A DNA stretch of 37,818 nt from assembly GCA_026932145.1 (NCBI GenBank), contig JAIXKT010000001.1:1-37818 (forward strand), in the 5' to 3' direction. Origin of the DNA: Bacteroidia bacterium. GTDB lineage: Bacteria > Bacteroidota > Bacteroidia > J057 > JAIXKT01. The notes below the pieces were generated by a model. It was not told the origin of the DNA, ran no database searches, and was given only the letters and a program-made list of their open reading frames with translations. Shown piece by piece: positions 537 to 10,656 of the stretch (positions are counted from its first letter, which is position 1; every line of letters starts with the position of its first letter). A program made the position numbers and the translations under genes.

Positions 537-565
537 TTGTTAGGATTTAAAAAAAACTATCTTTG
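537..565 (+). promoter_or_regulatory. Bacteroidota-type promoter for the FGE-domain gene
   Basis: TTG at 537-539, then 18 bases, then TATCTTTG at 558-565, which fits TAnnTTTG exactly. The distance to the ATG at 586 is normal. The promoter overlaps an in-frame GTG at 565, which therefore cannot be the start codon. Confidence 0.55.
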
Positions 566-585
566 TGCAAGTATTTGTAAAGATT

Positions 586-2106
586 ATGAAAAACATCGAC
601 AAATTTAGTTTAAGGGCATTGTGGGTGCCTATATTATTGTTTTTGTTGTGCATTGGCTATAATGTGCCCAAAGCATATTCTAATGCACTAAATATAACTG
701 GCTTATCTGTAAATCAAACGAATAAGACGGTTACATTTAGTGTTCAGTGGCAAAATTCTTGGCGGGTAACTACATCTCCTTCAAACTGGGATGGTGTTTG
801 GATATTTGTGAAATTTCGTAATTGCGGAACTCCGCCAACAACAGCGTGGTCGCATGGAGCGATGAGTGTAAACTTAGGAGACCATAACTTCGGATCTGAT
901 TTAGAGCCTACTTTTTCAGACGGATCTTCTGTAGGTATAGATGCCAGCCCAAACAATACGGGGGTAATGCTACGCAGAAATAGCGTTGGTATTTTTGCCT
1001 CTCCAGCAGCCACGACCATTACTTTAAACGTTACAAATCTACCCGGTGCAGGTACAGATATTGACGTTAAAGTATTTGGAATAGAAATGGTATTCGTTCC
1101 CGGCTCTGCTTTCTGGGCGGGAGATAACGCCAGTTGGGGCGGTTTATCCTCTATTTCAAATGCTAATGTAGCTTTTCAGGTAAGCTCTGAAAATGCTGTT
1201 ACAGTTCATGCTGATAATAGTTGGAATGATGCCCAAGTTGATAACGTAAACTTACCCGCAGCCTATCCTAAGGGCTTCAATCCCTTTTATTGCATGAAAT
1301 ATGAAATTTCACAACATCAGTACAGCGAATTTTTAAATACAATTTCCAGTACCATTCAAAATGTACGTTACTTAGGAAATTTTAATTCATACAGAAACCG
1401 GAGTTCTAACACTGGAACCCCTCCCAACCTATATGTTTCAGACAGACCGAATAGGGCACAAAACTATCTTACTTGGGCAGATTTTTCTGCTTATTTAGAT
1501 TGGGCTGCCCTAAAGCCAATGTCAGAGCTCCAGTTTGAAAAAGCCTGCCGAGGATTAGGACCGGTTGTTTCTGGAGAATTTGCATGGGGAACTACTAACA
1601 TCTATCAAGGAACGGTTATATCTACCACCATACCCAGCGAAAACGGCACAGAAGTATTCCTCAACACACCTACATCTAACTGTAATTATTATTATGATGC
1701 ATTCACAGGAGGTGGAGACGGAGGCTATGGCCCTGTTAGAGTAGGTATGAATGCTCTACCTACATCATCTACCCGTGAAGCTGCCGGTGCATCTTTCTAT
1801 GGAATCCAAGACCTAACTGGTAATGTAGGTGAATATTGTGTAGCCGCTTCCGGCCAAAGCTTAGGCTATCTCGGCTCTTGGGGAGACGGTAATATTGATA
1901 ACGCAACGGGCGTTCATACCCAAGGAGACTGGCCCGCCGGTACATTAACTTCTGGTTACCAAGTAGCCATTCGTGGTGGTGCATGGGATTCAGACGGTAC
2001 TAGAATCCGTATGGATGACCGCTATGAGTATTATTCTGGTCGTGTCAATAGCTATTTTTATACTCGCGGCAATTGTAGTAGTTATGGCGGACGCGGTATC
2101 AGATAA
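586..2106 (+). CDS. Exported FGE-sulfatase (SUMF1-type) domain protein
   Basis: This 506-residue protein starts with a basic stretch and a hydrophobic segment (about residues 10-32), read as a signal peptide. About residues 35-165 form a beta-rich region I do not recognise. A formylglycine-generating-enzyme/sulfatase-modifying-factor domain follows: MVFVPGSAFWAGD, then FYCMKYEISQHQYSEFLN, then MSELQFEKACRG, then DLTGNVGEYCV, then the terminal RGGAWDSDG block. In Bacteroidota, surface proteins of this fold usually act as binding modules, not as true formylglycine enzymes. I see no C-terminal T9SS sorting domain. The ATG at 586 is preferred because the promoter overlaps the upstream GTG. The last ~45 residues are unusually rich in Tyr, Ser, Gly, Asn and Arg and end directly in GIR-stop (see separate entry). 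The gene precedes the giant adhesin in the same direction but seems to have its own promoter. Confidence 0.8.
   Translation: MKNIDKFSLRALWVPILLFLLCIGYNVPKAYSNALNITGLSVNQTNKTVTFSVQWQNSWRVTTSPSNWDGVWIFVKFRNCGTPPTTAWSHGAMSVNLGDHNFGSDLEPTFSDGSSVGIDASPNNTGVMLRRNSVGIFASPAATTITLNVTNLPGAGTDIDVKVFGIEMVFVPGSAFWAGDNASWGGLSSISNANVAFQVSSENAVTVHADNSWNDAQVDNVNLPAAYPKGFNPFYCMKYEISQHQYSEFLNTISSTIQNVRYLGNFNSYRNRSSNTGTPPNLYVSDRPNRAQNYLTWADFSAYLDWAALKPMSELQFEKACRGLGPVVSGEFAWGTTNIYQGTVISTTIPSENGTEVFLNTPTSNCNYYYDAFTGGGDGGYGPVRVGMNALPTSSTREAAGASFYGIQDLTGNVGEYCVAASGQSLGYLGSWGDGNIDNATGVHTQGDWPAGTLTSGYQVAIRGGAWDSDGTRIRMDDRYEYYSGRVNSYFYTRGNCSSYGGRGIR
1972..2106 (+). other. Candidate hypervariable C-terminal region (DGR-like)
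   Basis: Codons from RGGAW to the stop form the end of the C-type-lectin-like fold, which is where known diversity-generating retroelement targets carry their variable region. From about residue RYEYYSG onward nearly every codon ends in T or C and encodes Y, S, G, N, T, F, C, D, R or V, the set reachable from AAY template codons. Lys, Leu, Pro, Ala and Gln are almost absent. A 14-bp stem-loop lies 11 bases after the stop. No template repeat or reverse transcriptase is in the window, so this is inference only. Confidence 0.3.
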
Positions 2107-2149: not shown

Positions 2150-2199
2150 AACTCATGTAGAATTAGCGATAAACTTTGCAAAAAAACTGGCTGAAAGTT

Positions 2200-5100
2200 A
2201 TGAAACAACTTTACTGCGTTCTGTTATTTATGATGGGATTGGTTGGCCATGCACAACCCCCCAATGATAATTGCTCTAACGCAATAGATATACCCATTCC
2301 AAACGGAGGTTTTGGGTATGGTAACTTTGTTTCATCACCAATAAGAATGCTCGGTGCTACTGTTCAGACGGGAGAGTTTATTCCCATTCAGCAAGTAGCC
2401 CGAGATAAAACAGTTTGGTTTAAGTTTCATTTACCGACTACGCGCGAAATCCGTATAGTTTTAGAGCAGTCCCAATCCCCGCCACCTATGCCGGCTACAT
2501 GGGCCGGTTGGACATTATACAAGACCAATACCTGCTTGCCAGGTACTAATGAAGTAATAGACCCACCGATTATTAACATAGAAGGCTATACCCACATTTG
2601 CTTAAAATCGGGGGATTATATGATACAGGTGTCCTCAGTGGTTAATGCAAATGATTCCTTGCAGGTTCGCTTGATTGTAAACCCTTCCTCCGCTACAGAA
2701 ACGCTATATGACTATGCCTCAAACCCACTAAACTTTGGGGTGATAAGCGGTGTAGGCCTGCCTAACTATATGAATCAAACGTACTTAGTTGGATGCCAGT
2801 CTATATTTAGCGGAGAGTTAATGTGCCCTGATACAAATTTTACGCAATCAAGTTGGCATATATTTACTACGGATAATTTAGTGGATTATGTTCGTTTTGA
2901 ATTAGGAGAAAATCCATGGAGAACAAATATACCGGGTATTCGATATTTTGGATATAATTTATACAGAGGTAATGCCATGCAAGACTCAATTGCGGATGGA
3001 ATACCTGCCGGAGGAACAAATTTAACAAGAATAGATAGTTGTAAAACCTTAACACAATCAAATTCAGGGGTTTATGCCGCTACTTGGAATGCTTGCCAGT
3101 TAGAGCCGAATACTACTTACTCAATACAACTATTTTTTAGCCGAACGTACTTTGGTAATATAAATGTTCGGATGTACGAAGTGGGTTCTAACCCTACTGC
3201 TTCTCCCTTTCCGGGAACGATTCCGCCTGCGTATCAGATTGGCAACTTATCCTATGGGAATAATAACCGGAGTGATTATTTTTCTTGTAATGGCCAAATG
3301 GCTTTGCAGGCACCTTGTGCGCCGGCAATTCCGGATAGCGCTAATTACAAATTAGGAGGATATACTTATGACTTAAACCAATGGACAACCTTTCAGTTAG
3401 ATGTTCCGTCAAATATAGATTTTAGCGCGTGGTCATGGGGTAGCCCTGCGGTTTGGGTTCGCTTATATCAGGGTGATGCCGCATCAGGATGCGCCGGATT
3501 AACGTACTACGATATGTTTTCAGGCACTAAATTTATCCCGTGCTTACCAGCCGGAACGTGGAGTATTCAGTTATTGGGAACATCAAATCCACCTAATGCT
3601 CATCAATATTGGGTATCCCATTTAGGACGGCAGGTAAACCTTACAATCAGAAGGGACCAAGTAGGTGCAGAAAAATATGGACTTCGGAATACAACCCAAG
3701 TTGATAGCATAAACGGACTAAATGGATTGGTTTCAGGGCAAACGTATTATGCAAAAAATGATTATTTCGATTGCTCTACGACCCTTTTACCGGATGGAGA
3801 TCTTTGCCGAGCCTCAAACGATAGGGCGATTTACCGACTTATTTATATCAACCAAAATGGAATTTTAGTATCGGGTGGAGGAGATTGGTGGCGTTTTCGC
3901 TACCGTTTATACAGAGGAGACCCCAGAACGGCTCCCGTAGTTAATGGCCGGTTACAAGGGCTTATTGACCAAGCCGGTTGCCAAAGTACCTATTATCCAT
4001 TCAAAGTTTGTGTAGTACCGGGCTGGTACGTATTAGTAACTTTTGGGGACATTACGGATATTACCTATGGAGACCGCCCTTGGGTGCATTTTGATGCTTA
4101 CCCTCCAACCATATTTACGAACCCTGTTGCTCCGGAGGTTTTAGATACAGTTTCGTTAAGCCGTTTATCCGTTTCGGCTACTCCAACACGTTTTTATTGT
4201 GATGATAACCCGCTCACAATTTTAGGATATGCTCCTTGTAACGGTGCTACAAAGCAAATATACCGCGAAGTTTATATTGCACAGCCCTCGCTATTGACTT
4301 TTACAGATAACACCGGCTCTTATTATTATGGAGGCGGAGTTAGCTATCGAATGTTTTCTGGACGCTTATCAACCAACTCTCTTACCGGTTTGTGGAAAGA
4401 TTGTTATGGTGGCTTCACTACTTGTACACCGCCGGGTTGGTACACCATTGTGGCCTATGGTTACGGAAAGACATTTGTGGATCCTACGTATCCCAGTGGA
4501 TTGGGAGGCTCAATTGGAGACAATAACACCTTTACGTTATCAATAAATCCAAATGTTCAGCGATTCAGGACATTTGCTACAGCAGATACCAGTTTCTTGC
4601 ATGACCCACAAATTTTTTGGAGACCAAATACCGTACAGCATACTGCAAAATATCCCAAAAACGATACTACCTTTACTTTCCCCCAAGAATATTGGGATTG
4701 TGCAGACGACTTACCGTTTCCTCCGGGTATATTTGCCTGCAATGTAAGCCATAACCGCATTTCTTACAGAGTTTTTACCCTGACGAAGACTTCTTATGTG
4801 GTAATTAATAATTTAAATCCATGGCCGTATGGCTATCAATCTCGACTATATTCAGGCGACATTCGGGGACAGGCTCCGCCGTTTACCATTGCTCATGATT
4901 GTGTTTCAGACAACATGAAGTTTTGTAGCCTATCACCCGGAGTTTATACCTTAGTTACATTTGCAGGAAATGGAAATATAGGCTACACACATACACCCAC
5001 AATTTATGTGGATTCTACGGGATATAGTAAGTTTGATAGATCTTCAAGTGCTTATAGCTTTGGGGAGATACCAAGCAATAGTACAGAATACTTGGGAAAT

Positions 5101-8100
5101 CCTTCGGATCCATTAGGCCCATTTGGAAGAGCACCCAGTAACGACTTTTTCTTTTGTACTACTGGAGCTCCTTCTACCGACCCACATAATAACTGCCCAA
5201 TAGGAAGTACTCATAGTAATAACCCGCCCGTTCAGCAATCATTGAATGTATATCGCCGTTCATTGTGGTACACATTTACCGTAACAGGGCCGGGAACTGT
5301 AAATGTATCAGTATATAACCGAACACCTTATAAAACATCTCAAACTCCATTTACAATATATTATTCACCTAACACTGTAATTCCCCCAACAGATTCTCTT
5401 TCACCACCCTTGCAGTACATAAATACTTCAACTAGTTGGTGGTGCGGAAATAGCCAAACAGTTTCTTTTTACATCGATCCATGTAATCCGGTTATTCAAA
5501 GACGTTATTACGTGATGGTGAACTGTAATTATTATAATGAGGCAAATAATCAAATTGAAGTAGGAGTTCGTTTTGACCCGGCACCTCCCAGTTTTGTGCT
5601 GTTTGACCATTATTCCCATGCTAATCAAATCAATGCAAATCCGACTACTCAAAGTTTTCCGCCATATACAAATTATACCTTAATAGATAGTGTTACTTTG
5701 ACGGGTTATTTAGGTAACTTAAACTGCGCTACAAAAGATCCCACAGATCAAAATTCCTGCGGAAATAAAACTATTTGGTACAAAATTGTAGTAGGGAGAA
5801 CCGGACGCTTACGATTTAATTATGACAGACCCAATGGAACTACAAACTATAACACAAGTGATATTCAGTTATATCGCTCTATAATACCGGGGGATTCAAC
5901 CAATTCCGGCCTTGTTCGGGTTCCAGAAACATCACTGTCGGTCAATAATAACCCTAATTTCAACCCCGGCACATATTACACATGGGGGCAGGGTTGTGTA
6001 TCTCCCGGTGTTTATTATTTAATGTTTACGGGTTGTAATTATCCAACTGAAACGGTACTTCCGCGTATTTGGTTTATTCCGGATAAGGGAGATTTGTGCA
6101 GTGACCCGGTAGCTCTAAATGCAGCTACATTTAGTAGTTTTGAGGATTCTGTTAGGGTAGATTGTCATACGATAGGAGAGGCTCCGGGCGAAGATGGCTC
6201 TAATATGGGATGTTTATCCGGCCCAACCGGCTATAAATCTACATGGTTCAGTATTGATGCAAGTACTTTGCCAGGGAAGTTTAATATGGATATACAGGTT
6301 ATGAACCATACAAATTCGCCAGGAGATGAAATTCGTTATCGGGTAGCAACGGGGTCTTGTAGTAATTTAACATTTGATGAATGTGTTTCCCAGGGAGCTT
6401 TTATTATTTTGCACTTAAAATGCCGAACCGCAGGCTTCTTCCGCATTCAAGTTATTTCACCGGAATATGCTATCGGTTTTATTGGGTTAAAAACGACAGT
6501 TTATCCGGTTTCAGACACTCAGTGTGTCCCAATTCCACCGGAACGCCCACGAGCTTCGTTTCTATACACAGCTTCTTGTGCAAATCTGCCTGTATTTTTT
6601 ACCAACACATCCTCCAGTGGGCCAAGTATAACCTACAAATGGCTATTTGGAGACGGAGATTCTTCGTTTGTAGTTAATCCAATACATTATTATGTATCCC
6701 CGGGAAATTATCCGGTACGGTTAATCGCTTTTAATGGAGGTGTTTCGGATACGATGTTGCGCTTTGTTTCTGTATATCCAAAACCCCAAGTTAGTTTTAC
6801 CCTAAATCCTGCAAGCCCCTTAGCAGGAGAGCCAATAACGATTACGCCATTGATGGTTGATACTATCCCCGGTGCGACTTATTATTGGAATTTCTGTGCG
6901 GCTCCCGGGCCTTGCACAGCATCTCCGCAGTTTTATGTTGGCGTTACACCACCTCCGGTTTCATATAGCTTGCCGGGAAACAAACGTATATGTGTAACCA
7001 TATCTAATGGAAACTGTGATTCTACCTATTGTCTTGACTTTACAGTCTTGATGACTCCTGTGTTTGTCGGTGGCCCTTATGACGGCCATGCAAATAGCAA
7101 CTATACAGCTAATTGTGAACCTAATATATATGTTGGTGGCCCTTATGACGGCCATGCAACCGATAATGTTTCTGTGAATTGCTTTGCTAACATATATGTT
7201 GGTGGCCCTTATGATGGCCATGCAACTGATAATGTTTCTGTGAATTGCTTTGCTAATATTTTTGTCGGCGGCCCTTATGACGGCCATAGCTCGATATTAC
7301 TTGCCGGAAATTGCTTAACCAATATCTACACGGGTGGCCCTTATGACGGCCATGCCTTAGATGTCGTTTTTGCTAACTGTATTCTACCTATATATGCTGG
7401 TGGTCCTTATGACGGCCACGCGACTGATGTACTGTATTCAAACTGTGTTTCTAACATTTTTGCCGGTGGCCCCTATGACGGCCACGCAAATGACTTAGCC
7501 TTTTCTAATTGTCTTGTTACTACGGTATATTCCGGTGGTCCTTATGACGGTCATGCAACCGATCAAGTTATTGTATGCCCACAAGATCCGGTAATTTGGG
7601 TTGGTGGCCCCTATGACGGCCATGCAACCGATGTATTGTATTCAAATTGCGTTTCTAACATTTTTGTTGGTGGTCCCTATGACGGTCATGCGTTAGATGT
7701 CGTTTTTGCCAATTGTATTCAACCTATATATGCTGGTGGCCCTTATGATGGCCATGCCTTAGATGTTGTTGTTGCTAATTGCATTCAGCCTATATATGCT
7801 GGTGGTCCTTATGACGGTCATGCGTTAGATGTTGTTGTAACGAATTGTACTCAGCCTATTTTTGTTGGTGGCCCTTATGATGGCCACGCAAGTGTATCTG
7901 CTGCAAGTGCTTGTTTTGCCAATATTTTCGTTGGCGGCCCTTATGACGGCCATGCAGATGTAGTAGTTACGGCAAATTGCACCGCCTTAGTATATGCCGG
8001 TGGCCCCTATGACGGCCATAGCTCTGTGTTGCTTACCGGAAATTGCTTAACTAATATTTTTGTCGGAGGCCCCTATGACGGTCATGCAACCGATAAATGG

Positions 8101-10656
8101 AGTAATTTCACTGCCCCCAATGGAGTTGCTTGTTATGGACAAACGGTAACTTTTAACGTAGCTTCTCCTACAAATTGGTACGATTCACCTGTGTCTCCGA
8201 TACCGATAGCTTCAAATACAAATTCATTTACAACGCCTCCATTAGATCAAACCAAGATATATTACATACAAAATACTTGCACCGGAAATCGTAGCCAAAT
8301 TATTGCTCAGGTGAACTACCGCCCTGTACCAGAATTTACTTTTTCTAAAACTTGTTTGAATCAACCGGTTCAATTCTATAATATCACTCAGGTTTCTGGC
8401 CTCACTCAACCAACAATAGGTGGCTTAGGATTTCCTGTTTCGGCAGCCTCTACGGTTGGAGTACCACCTCCCGCAGGCAGAATAAGTTTTAGTAATAACT
8501 GGTTATATTATAGCTATCTCTATGACGGCTCATCATCAAGTTCTGCATGGACAATGGGTTCGCATCCTACGGGCACTTACTGGGTACAATGGAACTATCT
8601 ATCCAAAAAATCAGTCAATCGTTTTTATTATTGGGCACCTTCTGGAAATTCGCCCACAGAACTAAGGCTGTATTTTGCTGATTCAATGGGTTGGAAGTTA
8701 GTTAAGGTATTTAAGCCGGCTTCCGGTGGCGGAAACTTCGATACATATAATATCCCTGAAACAAATTGCTTATTTGCCAACCGTTGGAAACTTGAAGTGG
8801 ACGCACCTGCAAATTCAATAGATTGGCGTGAGTTCCAAGTATTTGCCTCAACACCAACAATAGGTGGAAATCCTACTTGGAATTTTGCAAACGGAGACAC
8901 CTCTACTGCCCAAAATCCTACTACAATATACACAGTGCCGGGTATTTATAATCCTACCCTAACAATTTCATTGCCGGGTAATTGTGATTCTTCTACAAGT
9001 ACCTTCTTGAATATGGGAACCCAAGCGTACTTGCACTATCGCTCAAAACAGGTAGGTAATTGGTCTGATACATCTACTTGGCAGATTGGAGATCCAATAC
9101 TTGGAGTTTGGTTGGATATGGGGCTTTACAATTCTGGCTGCGGGAGCGCAAGCTATCCAACACGCTATTCCAGAACGATACTTGTGCGCCATAATGTACT
9201 TTACAATCATACAATCCCCGCAGACACTATGGTAGATGAACTAACTATCAACAATGTAGGGAATTTGAAAATTCCACTTAATAATACCTTGTATCTGCAT
9301 GATACTACTAACGCATGGACATCTAACGACTTAGAAAATTATGGTCGCCTTGAGATAGAAGGAGACTTTACTCCGGTTGGAAACGCTATTTTGGCCAATG
9401 ATAGCCTAAGTACCGTTGCATACATACGTGCAGGAAATCAAAATATGTGGGCAGGTAAATATGGCCGTTTGGAGATACGTAACGGTGGAGAGAAGTTTTC
9501 TACGGGTAATTCCAGTGCAACTACCGAAGTTCAGTTCCAAAGCGGACATATCACATTAGGAAACACCACATTTACTCTTGGGGACTCCGCAATAATTACC
9601 GGACACGAATATAACACCGGATACTTCGTTACCAATGGAACAGGAAGCCTCAAAAAACGAAGCATCGGCGGAACACAGCAAACATTCTTATTCCCGATAG
9701 GACATTCTACGGCATCATACAATCGCTTACAATTGTGGAATCAAGGGACAAAAGATAACTTTTCTGCTCGTGTAAGTGGCACCTTTGAGCACAACGGACC
9801 AGTTCCTCCCAACCAATTAGAAACCACGTTCTCTGTAAATCGTACATGGCATGTCGAAGAAGAAATACCCGGCGGGTCATTAGCAGATATTAAAGTTTGG
9901 TGGATTACGCCACACGAAAATGCCTCTTTTGATAATACTCAGGCATTTATGGGACACTGGTATTCAGGTAGTGGAACGTGGATGCAAGAAAGTACTCCGG
10001 CTCAGTCCATAGGAGTAGGAAATAACATCTCGCCGTGGACATATAAAGCAAACGGATTTTCAAGTTTTTCTCCTTTTGCAGTTGGTTCTGACCCTGTTAT
10101 TTTGCCTATTCGCCTACTTAGTTTCAAAGGAAAGTTACACGGTAAAGATGCTTTACTTACTTGGGAAACAGCAGACGAAGTTAATTGTTCCGGATACCGG
10201 CTTCATCACGCTTATCAAGTTACTAATCAATGGGAAATGCTAACTTGGCAAGATGCTCAGGCGCAATCATATAATTCCTATCAGCACATACATAAGAACT
10301 TACCGGATGGCCGCCATTTCTATCAGTTAGAACAAGTTGATTTTGACGGACGTGTATTTTGGTCAGAAATAGTAGAATTGGTTGTAAAGGACGGAGAAGT
10401 TTTATGTGTACTATATCCTAACCCTACTAATCAGGCAGTTACTCAGCTTTCGCTCACCTTACCGGAAGAAAATACCATAGAAATTGCTGTTTACAATTCT
10501 ATTGGCCAACAAGTTTGGAAAGTGAATCCAACACTTCTGGAACGTGGTAATCATACAATATTACTTCCAGCAGGGTCATTAGCCGTTGGCACGTATCATG
10601 TACAAGTTCGTTTAAAAGATCAGGTAATTAACCAGAAATTAGTTATTACTCGTTAG
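2200..10656 (+). CDS. Giant T9SS-secreted multidomain adhesin-like protein
   Basis: This protein has ~2,818 residues from the ATG at 2200; the TTG at 2176 is in frame but less likely. MKQLYCVLLFMMGLVGHAQ is a good signal peptide. The mature part begins PPNDNCSNAID, a motif common at the start of Bacteroidota surface proteins. A long first part (about residues 20-1440) carries repeated beta-sandwich-like units with regular Cys-containing segments such as WYTIVAYG and CSLSPGVYTLVTFAG. A PKD domain follows near residues 1450-1530 (YKWLFGDGDS, YYVSPGNYPV), then sixteen GGPYDGHA repeats (about residues 1622-1965), an Ig-like segment, a second PKD domain (WNFANGDTSTAQNP), a GNWSDTSTW segment, and a C-terminal type A T9SS sorting domain (VLYPNPTNQ ... 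GTYHVQVRLKDQ ... QKLVITR). It is therefore predicted to cross the outer membrane by type IX secretion and be anchored or released. The function is probably adhesion or matrix; the ligand is unknown. No catalytic motif was seen. Confidence 0.85.
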   Translation: MKQLYCVLLFMMGLVGHAQPPNDNCSNAIDIPIPNGGFGYGNFVSSPIRMLGATVQTGEFIPIQQVARDKTVWFKFHLPTTREIRIVLEQSQSPPPMPATWAGWTLYKTNTCLPGTNEVIDPPIINIEGYTHICLKSGDYMIQVSSVVNANDSLQVRLIVNPSSATETLYDYASNPLNFGVISGVGLPNYMNQTYLVGCQSIFSGELMCPDTNFTQSSWHIFTTDNLVDYVRFELGENPWRTNIPGIRYFGYNLYRGNAMQDSIADGIPAGGTNLTRIDSCKTLTQSNSGVYAATWNACQLEPNTTYSIQLFFSRTYFGNINVRMYEVGSNPTASPFPGTIPPAYQIGNLSYGNNNRSDYFSCNGQMALQAPCAPAIPDSANYKLGGYTYDLNQWTTFQLDVPSNIDFSAWSWGSPAVWVRLYQGDAASGCAGLTYYDMFSGTKFIPCLPAGTWSIQLLGTSNPPNAHQYWVSHLGRQVNLTIRRDQVGAEKYGLRNTTQVDSINGLNGLVSGQTYYAKNDYFDCSTTLLPDGDLCRASNDRAIYRLIYINQNGILVSGGGDWWRFRYRLYRGDPRTAPVVNGRLQGLIDQAGCQSTYYPFKVCVVPGWYVLVTFGDITDITYGDRPWVHFDAYPPTIFTNPVAPEVLDTVSLSRLSVSATPTRFYCDDNPLTILGYAPCNGATKQIYREVYIAQPSLLTFTDNTGSYYYGGGVSYRMFSGRLSTNSLTGLWKDCYGGFTTCTPPGWYTIVAYGYGKTFVDPTYPSGLGGSIGDNNTFTLSINPNVQRFRTFATADTSFLHDPQIFWRPNTVQHTAKYPKNDTTFTFPQEYWDCADDLPFPPGIFACNVSHNRISYRVFTLTKTSYVVINNLNPWPYGYQSRLYSGDIRGQAPPFTIAHDCVSDNMKFCSLSPGVYTLVTFAGNGNIGYTHTPTIYVDSTGYSKFDRSSSAYSFGEIPSNSTEYLGNPSDPLGPFGRAPSNDFFFCTTGAPSTDPHNNCPIGSTHSNNPPVQQSLNVYRRSLWYTFTVTGPGTVNVSVYNRTPYKTSQTPFTIYYSPNTVIPPTDSLSPPLQYINTSTSWWCGNSQTVSFYIDPCNPVIQRRYYVMVNCNYYNEANNQIEVGVRFDPAPPSFVLFDHYSHANQINANPTTQSFPPYTNYTLIDSVTLTGYLGNLNCATKDPTDQNSCGNKTIWYKIVVGRTGRLRFNYDRPNGTTNYNTSDIQLYRSIIPGDSTNSGLVRVPETSLSVNNNPNFNPGTYYTWGQGCVSPGVYYLMFTGCNYPTETVLPRIWFIPDKGDLCSDPVALNAATFSSFEDSVRVDCHTIGEAPGEDGSNMGCLSGPTGYKSTWFSIDASTLPGKFNMDIQVMNHTNSPGDEIRYRVATGSCSNLTFDECVSQGAFIILHLKCRTAGFFRIQVISPEYAIGFIGLKTTVYPVSDTQCVPIPPERPRASFLYTASCANLPVFFTNTSSSGPSITYKWLFGDGDSSFVVNPIHYYVSPGNYPVRLIAFNGGVSDTMLRFVSVYPKPQVSFTLNPASPLAGEPITITPLMVDTIPGATYYWNFCAAPGPCTASPQFYVGVTPPPVSYSLPGNKRICVTISNGNCDSTYCLDFTVLMTPVFVGGPYDGHANSNYTANCEPNIYVGGPYDGHATDNVSVNCFANIYVGGPYDGHATDNVSVNCFANIFVGGPYDGHSSILLAGNCLTNIYTGGPYDGHALDVVFANCILPIYAGGPYDGHATDVLYSNCVSNIFAGGPYDGHANDLAFSNCLVTTVYSGGPYDGHATDQVIVCPQDPVIWVGGPYDGHATDVLYSNCVSNIFVGGPYDGHALDVVFANCIQPIYAGGPYDGHALDVVVANCIQPIYAGGPYDGHALDVVVTNCTQPIFVGGPYDGHASVSAASACFANIFVGGPYDGHADVVVTANCTALVYAGGPYDGHSSVLLTGNCLTNIFVGGPYDGHATDKWSNFTAPNGVACYGQTVTFNVASPTNWYDSPVSPIPIASNTNSFTTPPLDQTKIYYIQNTCTGNRSQIIAQVNYRPVPEFTFSKTCLNQPVQFYNITQVSGLTQPTIGGLGFPVSAASTVGVPPPAGRISFSNNWLYYSYLYDGSSSSSAWTMGSHPTGTYWVQWNYLSKKSVNRFYYWAPSGNSPTELRLYFADSMGWKLVKVFKPASGGGNFDTYNIPETNCLFANRWKLEVDAPANSIDWREFQVFASTPTIGGNPTWNFANGDTSTAQNPTTIYTVPGIYNPTLTISLPGNCDSSTSTFLNMGTQAYLHYRSKQVGNWSDTSTWQIGDPILGVWLDMGLYNSGCGSASYPTRYSRTILVRHNVLYNHTIPADTMVDELTINNVGNLKIPLNNTLYLHDTTNAWTSNDLENYGRLEIEGDFTPVGNAILANDSLSTVAYIRAGNQNMWAGKYGRLEIRNGGEKFSTGNSSATTEVQFQSGHITLGNTTFTLGDSAIITGHEYNTGYFVTNGTGSLKKRSIGGTQQTFLFPIGHSTASYNRLQLWNQGTKDNFSARVSGTFEHNGPVPPNQLETTFSVNRTWHVEEEIPGGSLADIKVWWITPHENASFDNTQAFMGHWYSGSGTWMQESTPAQSIGVGNNISPWTYKANGFSSFSPFAVGSDPVILPIRLLSFKGKLHGKDALLTWETADEVNCSGYRLHHAYQVTNQWEMLTWQDAQAQSYNSYQHIHKNLPDGRHFYQLEQVDFDGRVFWSEIVELVVKDGEVLCVLYPNPTNQAVTQLSLTLPEENTIEIAVYNSIGQQVWKVNPTLLERGNHTILLPAGSLAVGTYHVQVRLKDQVINQKLVITR
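7063..8096 (+). repeat. Tandem array of sixteen ~66-bp repeats coding GGPYDGHA units
   Basis: The DNA core GGTGGCCCTTATGACGGCCA recurs every 66 bases (69 for two units) with mostly third-position changes. Each unit codes for [FYW]-x-GGPYDGH-[AS] followed by ~13 variable residues, usually with one Cys (NC or SNC). Units 2 and 3 are identical in protein, and units 10-12 are near-identical, which indicates recent internal duplication. The 16th unit is cut short after ATDKWSN. The array sits inside one open frame, between a PKD domain and an Ig-like segment. The unit is a coding repeat, not a CRISPR. Confidence 0.9.

Follow-up and report, generated by a model that had tools for sequence, protein, structure and literature searches.

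In the 37,818-nt stretch of Bacteroidia DNA analyzed here (the window), the gene for a giant T9SS-secreted protein carries a tandem array of 16 GGPYDGH units. The array belongs to a GG-x-x-DG repeat family of uncultured Bacteroidia that is unmodelled in Pfam and NCBIfam. The turn residues of its core are conserved, its units are homogenized, and in most orthologues one odd unit marks the center of the array. We put it at an even chance that the array is an extended beta-rich module, with a fixed central unit, of an adhesin-like surface protein.

The window carries sixteen GGPYDGH units

The array spans 7063..8130 on the forward strand and, according to Tandem Repeats Finder and the positions of the cores, consists of 15 full units and a degenerate last unit. 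Exact GGPYDGH cores start at 7069, 7135, 7201, 7267, 7333, 7399, 7465 and 7534, and again at 7603, 7669, 7735, 7801, 7867, 7933, 7999 and 8065, which confirms the 16 units with a constant core counted in the initial annotation. Most of the array (7069-7955) was found by Tandem Repeats Finder with periods of 66 and 132. Units 1-6 (7069..7464, forward strand, as are all units) have 22 residues each and form the left arm together with unit 7 (7465..7533), the marker x, which has 23 residues and ends with TTVYS. Unit 8 (7534..7602), the marker y, also has 23 residues and is the middle of the 15 full units. Units 9-15 (7603..8064) form the right arm, followed by the degenerate unit 16 (8065..8130), which is devoid of Cys. 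The unit length of 22 residues given previously is therefore correct for the spacing in general but not for units 7 and 8. Likewise, the motif GGPYDGHA, reported in sixteen copies, is present in 14 units, whereas units 4 and 15 read GGPYDGHS. The near-constant Cys was found as described, with one Cys in 15 of the 16 units. Across the whole genome (66 contigs), a degenerate DNA pattern for the core matches at these 16 places only, and its reversed control had 0 occurrences in the same contigs.

Neighboring units had been considered identical and taken as a sign of recent copy-number change. However, units 2 and 3 differ by a single amino acid and have a DNA identity of 91%, and for units 10/11 and 11/12 the DNA identity is just 85% and 82%. 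At 82-91% identity, these neighbors do not demonstrate a recent change in copy number. A second giant gene, located on a different contig of this genome (L112, G000:C7:409000-414000; 2557-residue frame), has a weaker array of five GGPYDG-type units of 23 residues, four of which are full and the last of which reads GGPHDG.

The array resides in a giant T9SS protein downstream of an FGE-fold gene

The host gene (2200..10656, forward strand) encodes 2818 amino acids from its ATG. The open reading frame at 2176-10656 opens with TTG and has 2826 codons, and the residue numbers of domains given here refer to this TTG frame; the ATG at 2200, which is followed by a signal-peptide-like stretch, is the likelier start. 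The T9SS type A C-terminal sorting domain (Por_Secre_tail; residues 2746-2824, 10411..10647, forward strand) scored above the curated cut-offs in both Pfam (29.5 bits; cut-off 27) and NCBIfam (TIGR04183, 34.4 bits; cut-off 23), in support of the assignment as a giant T9SS protein. Pfam also detected a PKD domain ahead of the array (residues 1466-1522, 6571..6741, forward strand), the better of two PKD stretches, and a second PKD-like domain fills the stretch between this domain and the array, in agreement with the PKD-type domains that had been noted beside it. PKD domains and the T9SS tail are the only above-cut-off Pfam and NCBIfam matches in the giant protein. Judging from the Ig_7 domain of a relative (L025), the domain after the array in the window protein would be Ig_7-like.

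When the array and those of five relatives were scanned against Pfam and NCBIfam up to E 10, no model reached its cut-off over any of these arrays; the best Pfam match of the window array was Gag_MA with 17.1 bits, under the cut-off of 30. Membership of the unit in a described repeat family had been raised as a possibility, and no Pfam-A or NCBIfam model covers it. The string GGPYDG had no match in the open-access literature searched. The repeat, the locus and balanced copy number were undescribed in the titles and abstract starts of the open-access papers searched, a scope that gives no proof of novelty. The protein shares Por_Secre_tail, PKD domains, size and a tandem array with known T9SS type A cargo among the giant Bacteroidota surface proteins, but differs from it in the unmodelled GG-x-x-DG unit and the central marker unit.

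Upstream of the giant gene is a gene for an FGE-sulfatase-fold protein (565..2106, forward strand; FGE-sulfatase domain) with a secreted-looking product. Upstream FGE homologues with 33-54% identity were present in all seven loci that reach that far, and their ends lie no more than about 200 bases from where the match to the giant gene begins; the L037 locus begins inside the giant gene. The homologues are found in tandem in L036, L039, L040 and perhaps L041. A perfect 10-bp inverted repeat at 2121-2146, possibly a terminator or attenuator, separates the FGE and giant genes, and a single transcript of the two is therefore not assured.

GG-x-x-DG relatives are scattered over the Bacteroidia

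A search of genome contigs with the single array sequence gave no match, and an alignment query then gave eight loci. The array search of 60 genomes, including that of the window, matched 12 at E≤0.001, and with profile A2, matches at E≤1e-10 were obtained in 20 of 395 genomes from the class, again including its own. Phylum-level samples found little: the window's own genome alone among 395 (A5, E≤1e-12), and three of 390 genomes with its own included (A6, E≤1e-6). The repeat family is therefore rare in well-known Bacteroidota. Within the family of G101, the array was present in six of 12 genomes at E≤1e-12 and not in the other six.

The relatives comprise both giant and short proteins. All eight named relatives are metagenome-assembled genomes (Bacteroidia or Bacteroidetes), in which repeats may be misassembled. 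By alignment, the giant relatives have the same plan of PKD-like domain, array and Ig-like domain, and those with a complete frame have a T9SS-like end as judged by eye. The short relatives (such as L022, L025-L028, L033 and L087-L092; frames of about 230-960 amino acids) have a signal-like start, the array and often a T9SS tail, which was found in three of the four scanned (L022, L027 and L028, but not L025, which has a frame truncated by the end of the locus). Their turn motif is that of the window array, and their units span similar lengths; unlike the window array, some are devoid of Cys, and no x/y marker was noticed in an unsystematic look. In two g60 species, shorter proteins (L113 and L114) carry long arrays of about 15-17 units that measure about 25 residues each, and the L114 array continues into another frame. 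The L108 array (2180-3285; identical to L038) is spread over three frames, with shifts within the repeats that are either assembly errors or real.

Matches of the array to PHROG families (best phrog_12090, 5.7e-22) were rejected, as they were summed from short matches with 0 stretches significant alone. Such weak summed matches to phrog_12090 and phrog_1523, phage families with no assigned function, may reflect the same local turn. A tblastn search of plasmid and phage collections with the first seven units gave none at E≤1e-5.

Structure prediction yields a beta-solenoid with two strands per unit

AF2 modeled seven units with two strands per unit from an alignment of 46 rows, comprising the window and the loci of the alignment query (pLDDT 82.1, pTM 0.77); the pLDDT of the five models ranged from 69 to 82. 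The larger model of the PKD-like domain, the whole array and the Ig-like domain had a pLDDT of 67.5. Residues of about 14-107 of this model align with PKD domains, and its strand pattern is unbroken through y. Foldseek found nothing at E≤0.001 in the PDB with either model. VIA on the seven-unit model, run over 76 Foldseek-ranked chains, gave eight with Z of 8 or more (rmsd 3.0-9.2), mostly beta-solenoids and left-handed beta-helix enzymes, and in the larger model the whole array aligned end to end with linear beta-solenoids. Prediction of 6-8 units, which had been suggested as a check, thus produced a regular two-strand-per-unit beta-solenoid with seven units, but AF2 is described as over-predicting beta-solenoids, with confidence even for random repeats (PMC11795689). 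Because of this bias, we treat the fold of the array as a working hypothesis.

For the whole array, VIA ranked Pontibacter CsgA highest (8c50; Z 19.5, rmsd 9.4 over 299). In the curli subunits CsgA of Pontibacter (8c50) and E. coli (8enq), each unit contributes two strands, like the units of the modeled array, and the AF2 model resembles their flat two-sheet parallel beta-solenoid, although the superposition has a large rmsd and AF2 favors such folds. Curli have units of about 23 residues in variable number, and the curlin kernel is defined as QX10Q / NX5Q (PMC10192328). Membership in curli was rejected on the grounds of motif: QX10Q is present in 0 of 13 arrays and NX5Q only once, in one of the 13, and no curlin model was among the Pfam matches of the array or the five relatives at E≤10. 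CsgA polymerizes as amyloid and is secreted through CsgG; the array protein has a T9SS tail instead, and differs further in its one Cys per unit and its multidomain context. Crov588 (6nyr), whose repeats we take to be FNIP repeats, has a period of about 22 residues like the array and matched in phmmer with a whole-sequence E of 1.8e-7. Its kinship was rejected, since the best single-stretch i-Evalue was 0.72 with no common motif, and the match is likely due to composition and period. The PDB sequence matches, which involved three sequences, were discarded, as no single stretch was significant in the alignments shown for two of the three.

An odd unit occupies the center of most orthologous arrays

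We defined the marker by a simple rule, in which x is the first unit with a length of at least 23 residues and y the unit after it. The pair, which the initial annotation had overlooked, is present in 12 of the 13 orthologous arrays, and the exception, L036, has no unit that long. The full units to the left and right of y number 8/8 in L104 and L108, 7/7 in the window and L039, 6/6 in L041 and L103, 4/4 in L035, L040, L105 and L107, 6/4 in L037 and 6/2 in L106. Thus, y is exactly central in 10 of the 12 marked arrays, with arms of 4, 6, 7 or 8 units, and L037 and L106 are unbalanced. Arrays were counted once where L018-L021 and L023 carry the same arrays as L037, L039, L035, L036 and L040, and where L038 and L108 are one record. 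The balance count does not include L042, L109-L112 (also giant, with 4 or 5 units each) or the short forms; the marker rule is inapplicable to L109 and L112 because all of their units have 23 or more residues.

The marker was recognized post hoc, and the idea came from the first six arrays, five of which are equal. Six arrays of the genus g60 were fetched later and five of these are equal; of the 18 units in L108 (earlier seen as L038), which is among the six, 13 had however been read beforehand. Free permutation of the arms gave 3.0 equal arrays on average and P = 1.5e-5 for 10 of 12, and permutation within three lineage groups gave P = 6e-4. After near-kin (two pairs) were collapsed to leave 10 arrays, eight were equal (permutation P = 4e-4). 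We also simulated arms that change independently from an equal root on the gene tree of the flanks, some forks of which are weak. At least 10 of 12 arrays were equal in 10 of 32,111 simulations with at least four left-arm lengths, summed over 15 settings, and in 6 of 1,879 at the slowest rate under the same condition. Without the diverse-length condition, this outcome was reached in 5 to 8.6% of simulations at the slowest rate and in under 1% at rate 1 upwards. In cross-lineage comparisons, the best match was the same special unit in 33 of 96 cases for x, 42 of 96 for y and 27 of 96 for z, compared with 8.4 expected; because these units match their own kind above expectation, the marker was probably inherited across lineages. 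The presence of a central odd unit despite changing copy number hints at an unrecognized structural rule.

Ordinary unequal crossing-over alters one arm at a time, so the balance would need another cause. One tentative explanation is that the array folds back or pairs in antiparallel, such that y lies at the tip of an intramolecular hairpin or on the dyad axis of a homodimer, and pairing of each left unit with a right unit keeps the arms equal, with gains and losses on both sides. Equal arms in 10 of the 12 marked arrays at four different lengths are consistent with this, and a Pro-rich y could break the rod in the six g60 arrays (CPPP), L035 (CTPP) and L037 (CPLPP). In the whole-array AF2 model, however, the rod is unbroken at y and aligns with linear solenoids, three of the 13 arrays do not follow, and mirror likeness in the window falls short of significance (P = 0.08) and peaks at the x|y boundary instead of y. 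Mirror and translational likeness between the arms were not retained as indicators, given the latter P value for the window; in alternating arrays, mirror likeness is indistinguishable from the alternation of two unit types.

We give the same limited credence to a plain linear stalk, in which y has no special role and is central partly by shared ancestry and partly by chance. The sample is small, and the sisters L104 and L108, perhaps also L105 and L107, may share arm lengths by descent. Moreover, y best-matches the y of another lineage in just the 42 of 96 cases above, and when the g60 arrays alone are collapsed to four, 2 of 24 orderings are as good (about 0.08 by hand count). The tree simulations and the permutations over all marked arrays argue against this explanation.

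Selection fixes the core while the units are homogenized

Across the 16 copies of the core, 840 codon comparisons (120 pairs × 7 codons) revealed 270 synonymous and 0 amino-acid differences. At the 15 non-core positions, compared among the 13 units whose length is exactly 22 residues, 1170 comparisons revealed 236 synonymous and 662 amino-acid differences. The turn residues of the core are held by selection, beyond recent copying alone, and the other positions vary freely. Outside the core, ordinary units are 53% alike within arrays versus 21% between lineages, and they are about equally similar across the marker as inside one arm. The ordinary units are thus homogenized within arrays by concerted evolution.

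Conservation was assessed in 155 full units of the 13 giant arrays, with the last units and a unit of L108 that contains a frame shift left out. All units have D5 and G6, 153 have P3 and 146 have Y4, but the conservation of these columns and of GG is partly by construction, as the search pattern demanded GG, D/N at position 5, G at position 6 and short lists at positions 3 and 4. Cys was not demanded by the pattern and is present in 155 of 155 units (exactly one in 154), which upholds the constant Cys for the giant orthologues, though it is absent from some short forms. Two of the 12 short forms parsed, L033 and L090, are Cys-free (0 of 5 units each), and the sequence of L027, which is outside the 12 as is L088, likewise displays no Cys in its units. 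The disulfide linkage suggested in the initial annotation has the constant Cys of the giant arrays in its favor and the Cys-free short forms against it. Disulfides cannot be deduced from the parity of Cys: the number of full units is odd in each of the 12 marked arrays, but Cys in the flanking domains makes this uninformative.

A disordered or flexible linker, with the solenoid as an artefact of AF2, is a rather improbable alternative. The published bias of AF2 (PMC11795689), a core rich in Gly, Pro and Asp, and the weak Foldseek scores would fit such a linker, but strict turn conservation with free synonymous change and the Cys in 155 of 155 units exceed the constraint on a linker. A metal-binding solenoid using the Asp and His of the core, as proposed in the initial annotation, is very improbable. 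DGH is invariant in this one array, but His occupies position 7 in just 29 of the 155 orthologous units, and most orthologous units have A, F, S, V or T there.

Discussion

In the reading that we prefer, an extended beta-rich module with a fixed central unit, each 22-residue unit would form two short beta strands joined by a tight GG-P-Y-D-G turn, as in the predicted fold, and the units would stack into a beta-rich rod along which each contributes one Cys. Selection fixes the turn residues while other positions vary and units are homogenized within each species. The x, y pair keeps its identity across lineages, with an equal number of units on either side of y in most orthologues, and the length of the array would change while y stays central. 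The module would probably act as an extended spacer or stalk, or as a presentation module, of an adhesin-like protein that we presume to be at the cell surface and whose gene neighbors that of a putative FGE-fold partner.

The common assumption is that the length of a tandem-repeat array can change freely, wherever in the array this occurs. If the change is indeed balanced around a fixed unit, sequence alone would reveal a long-range structural contact, and this family would allow a rare test of fold-back or dimerization in repeat proteins.
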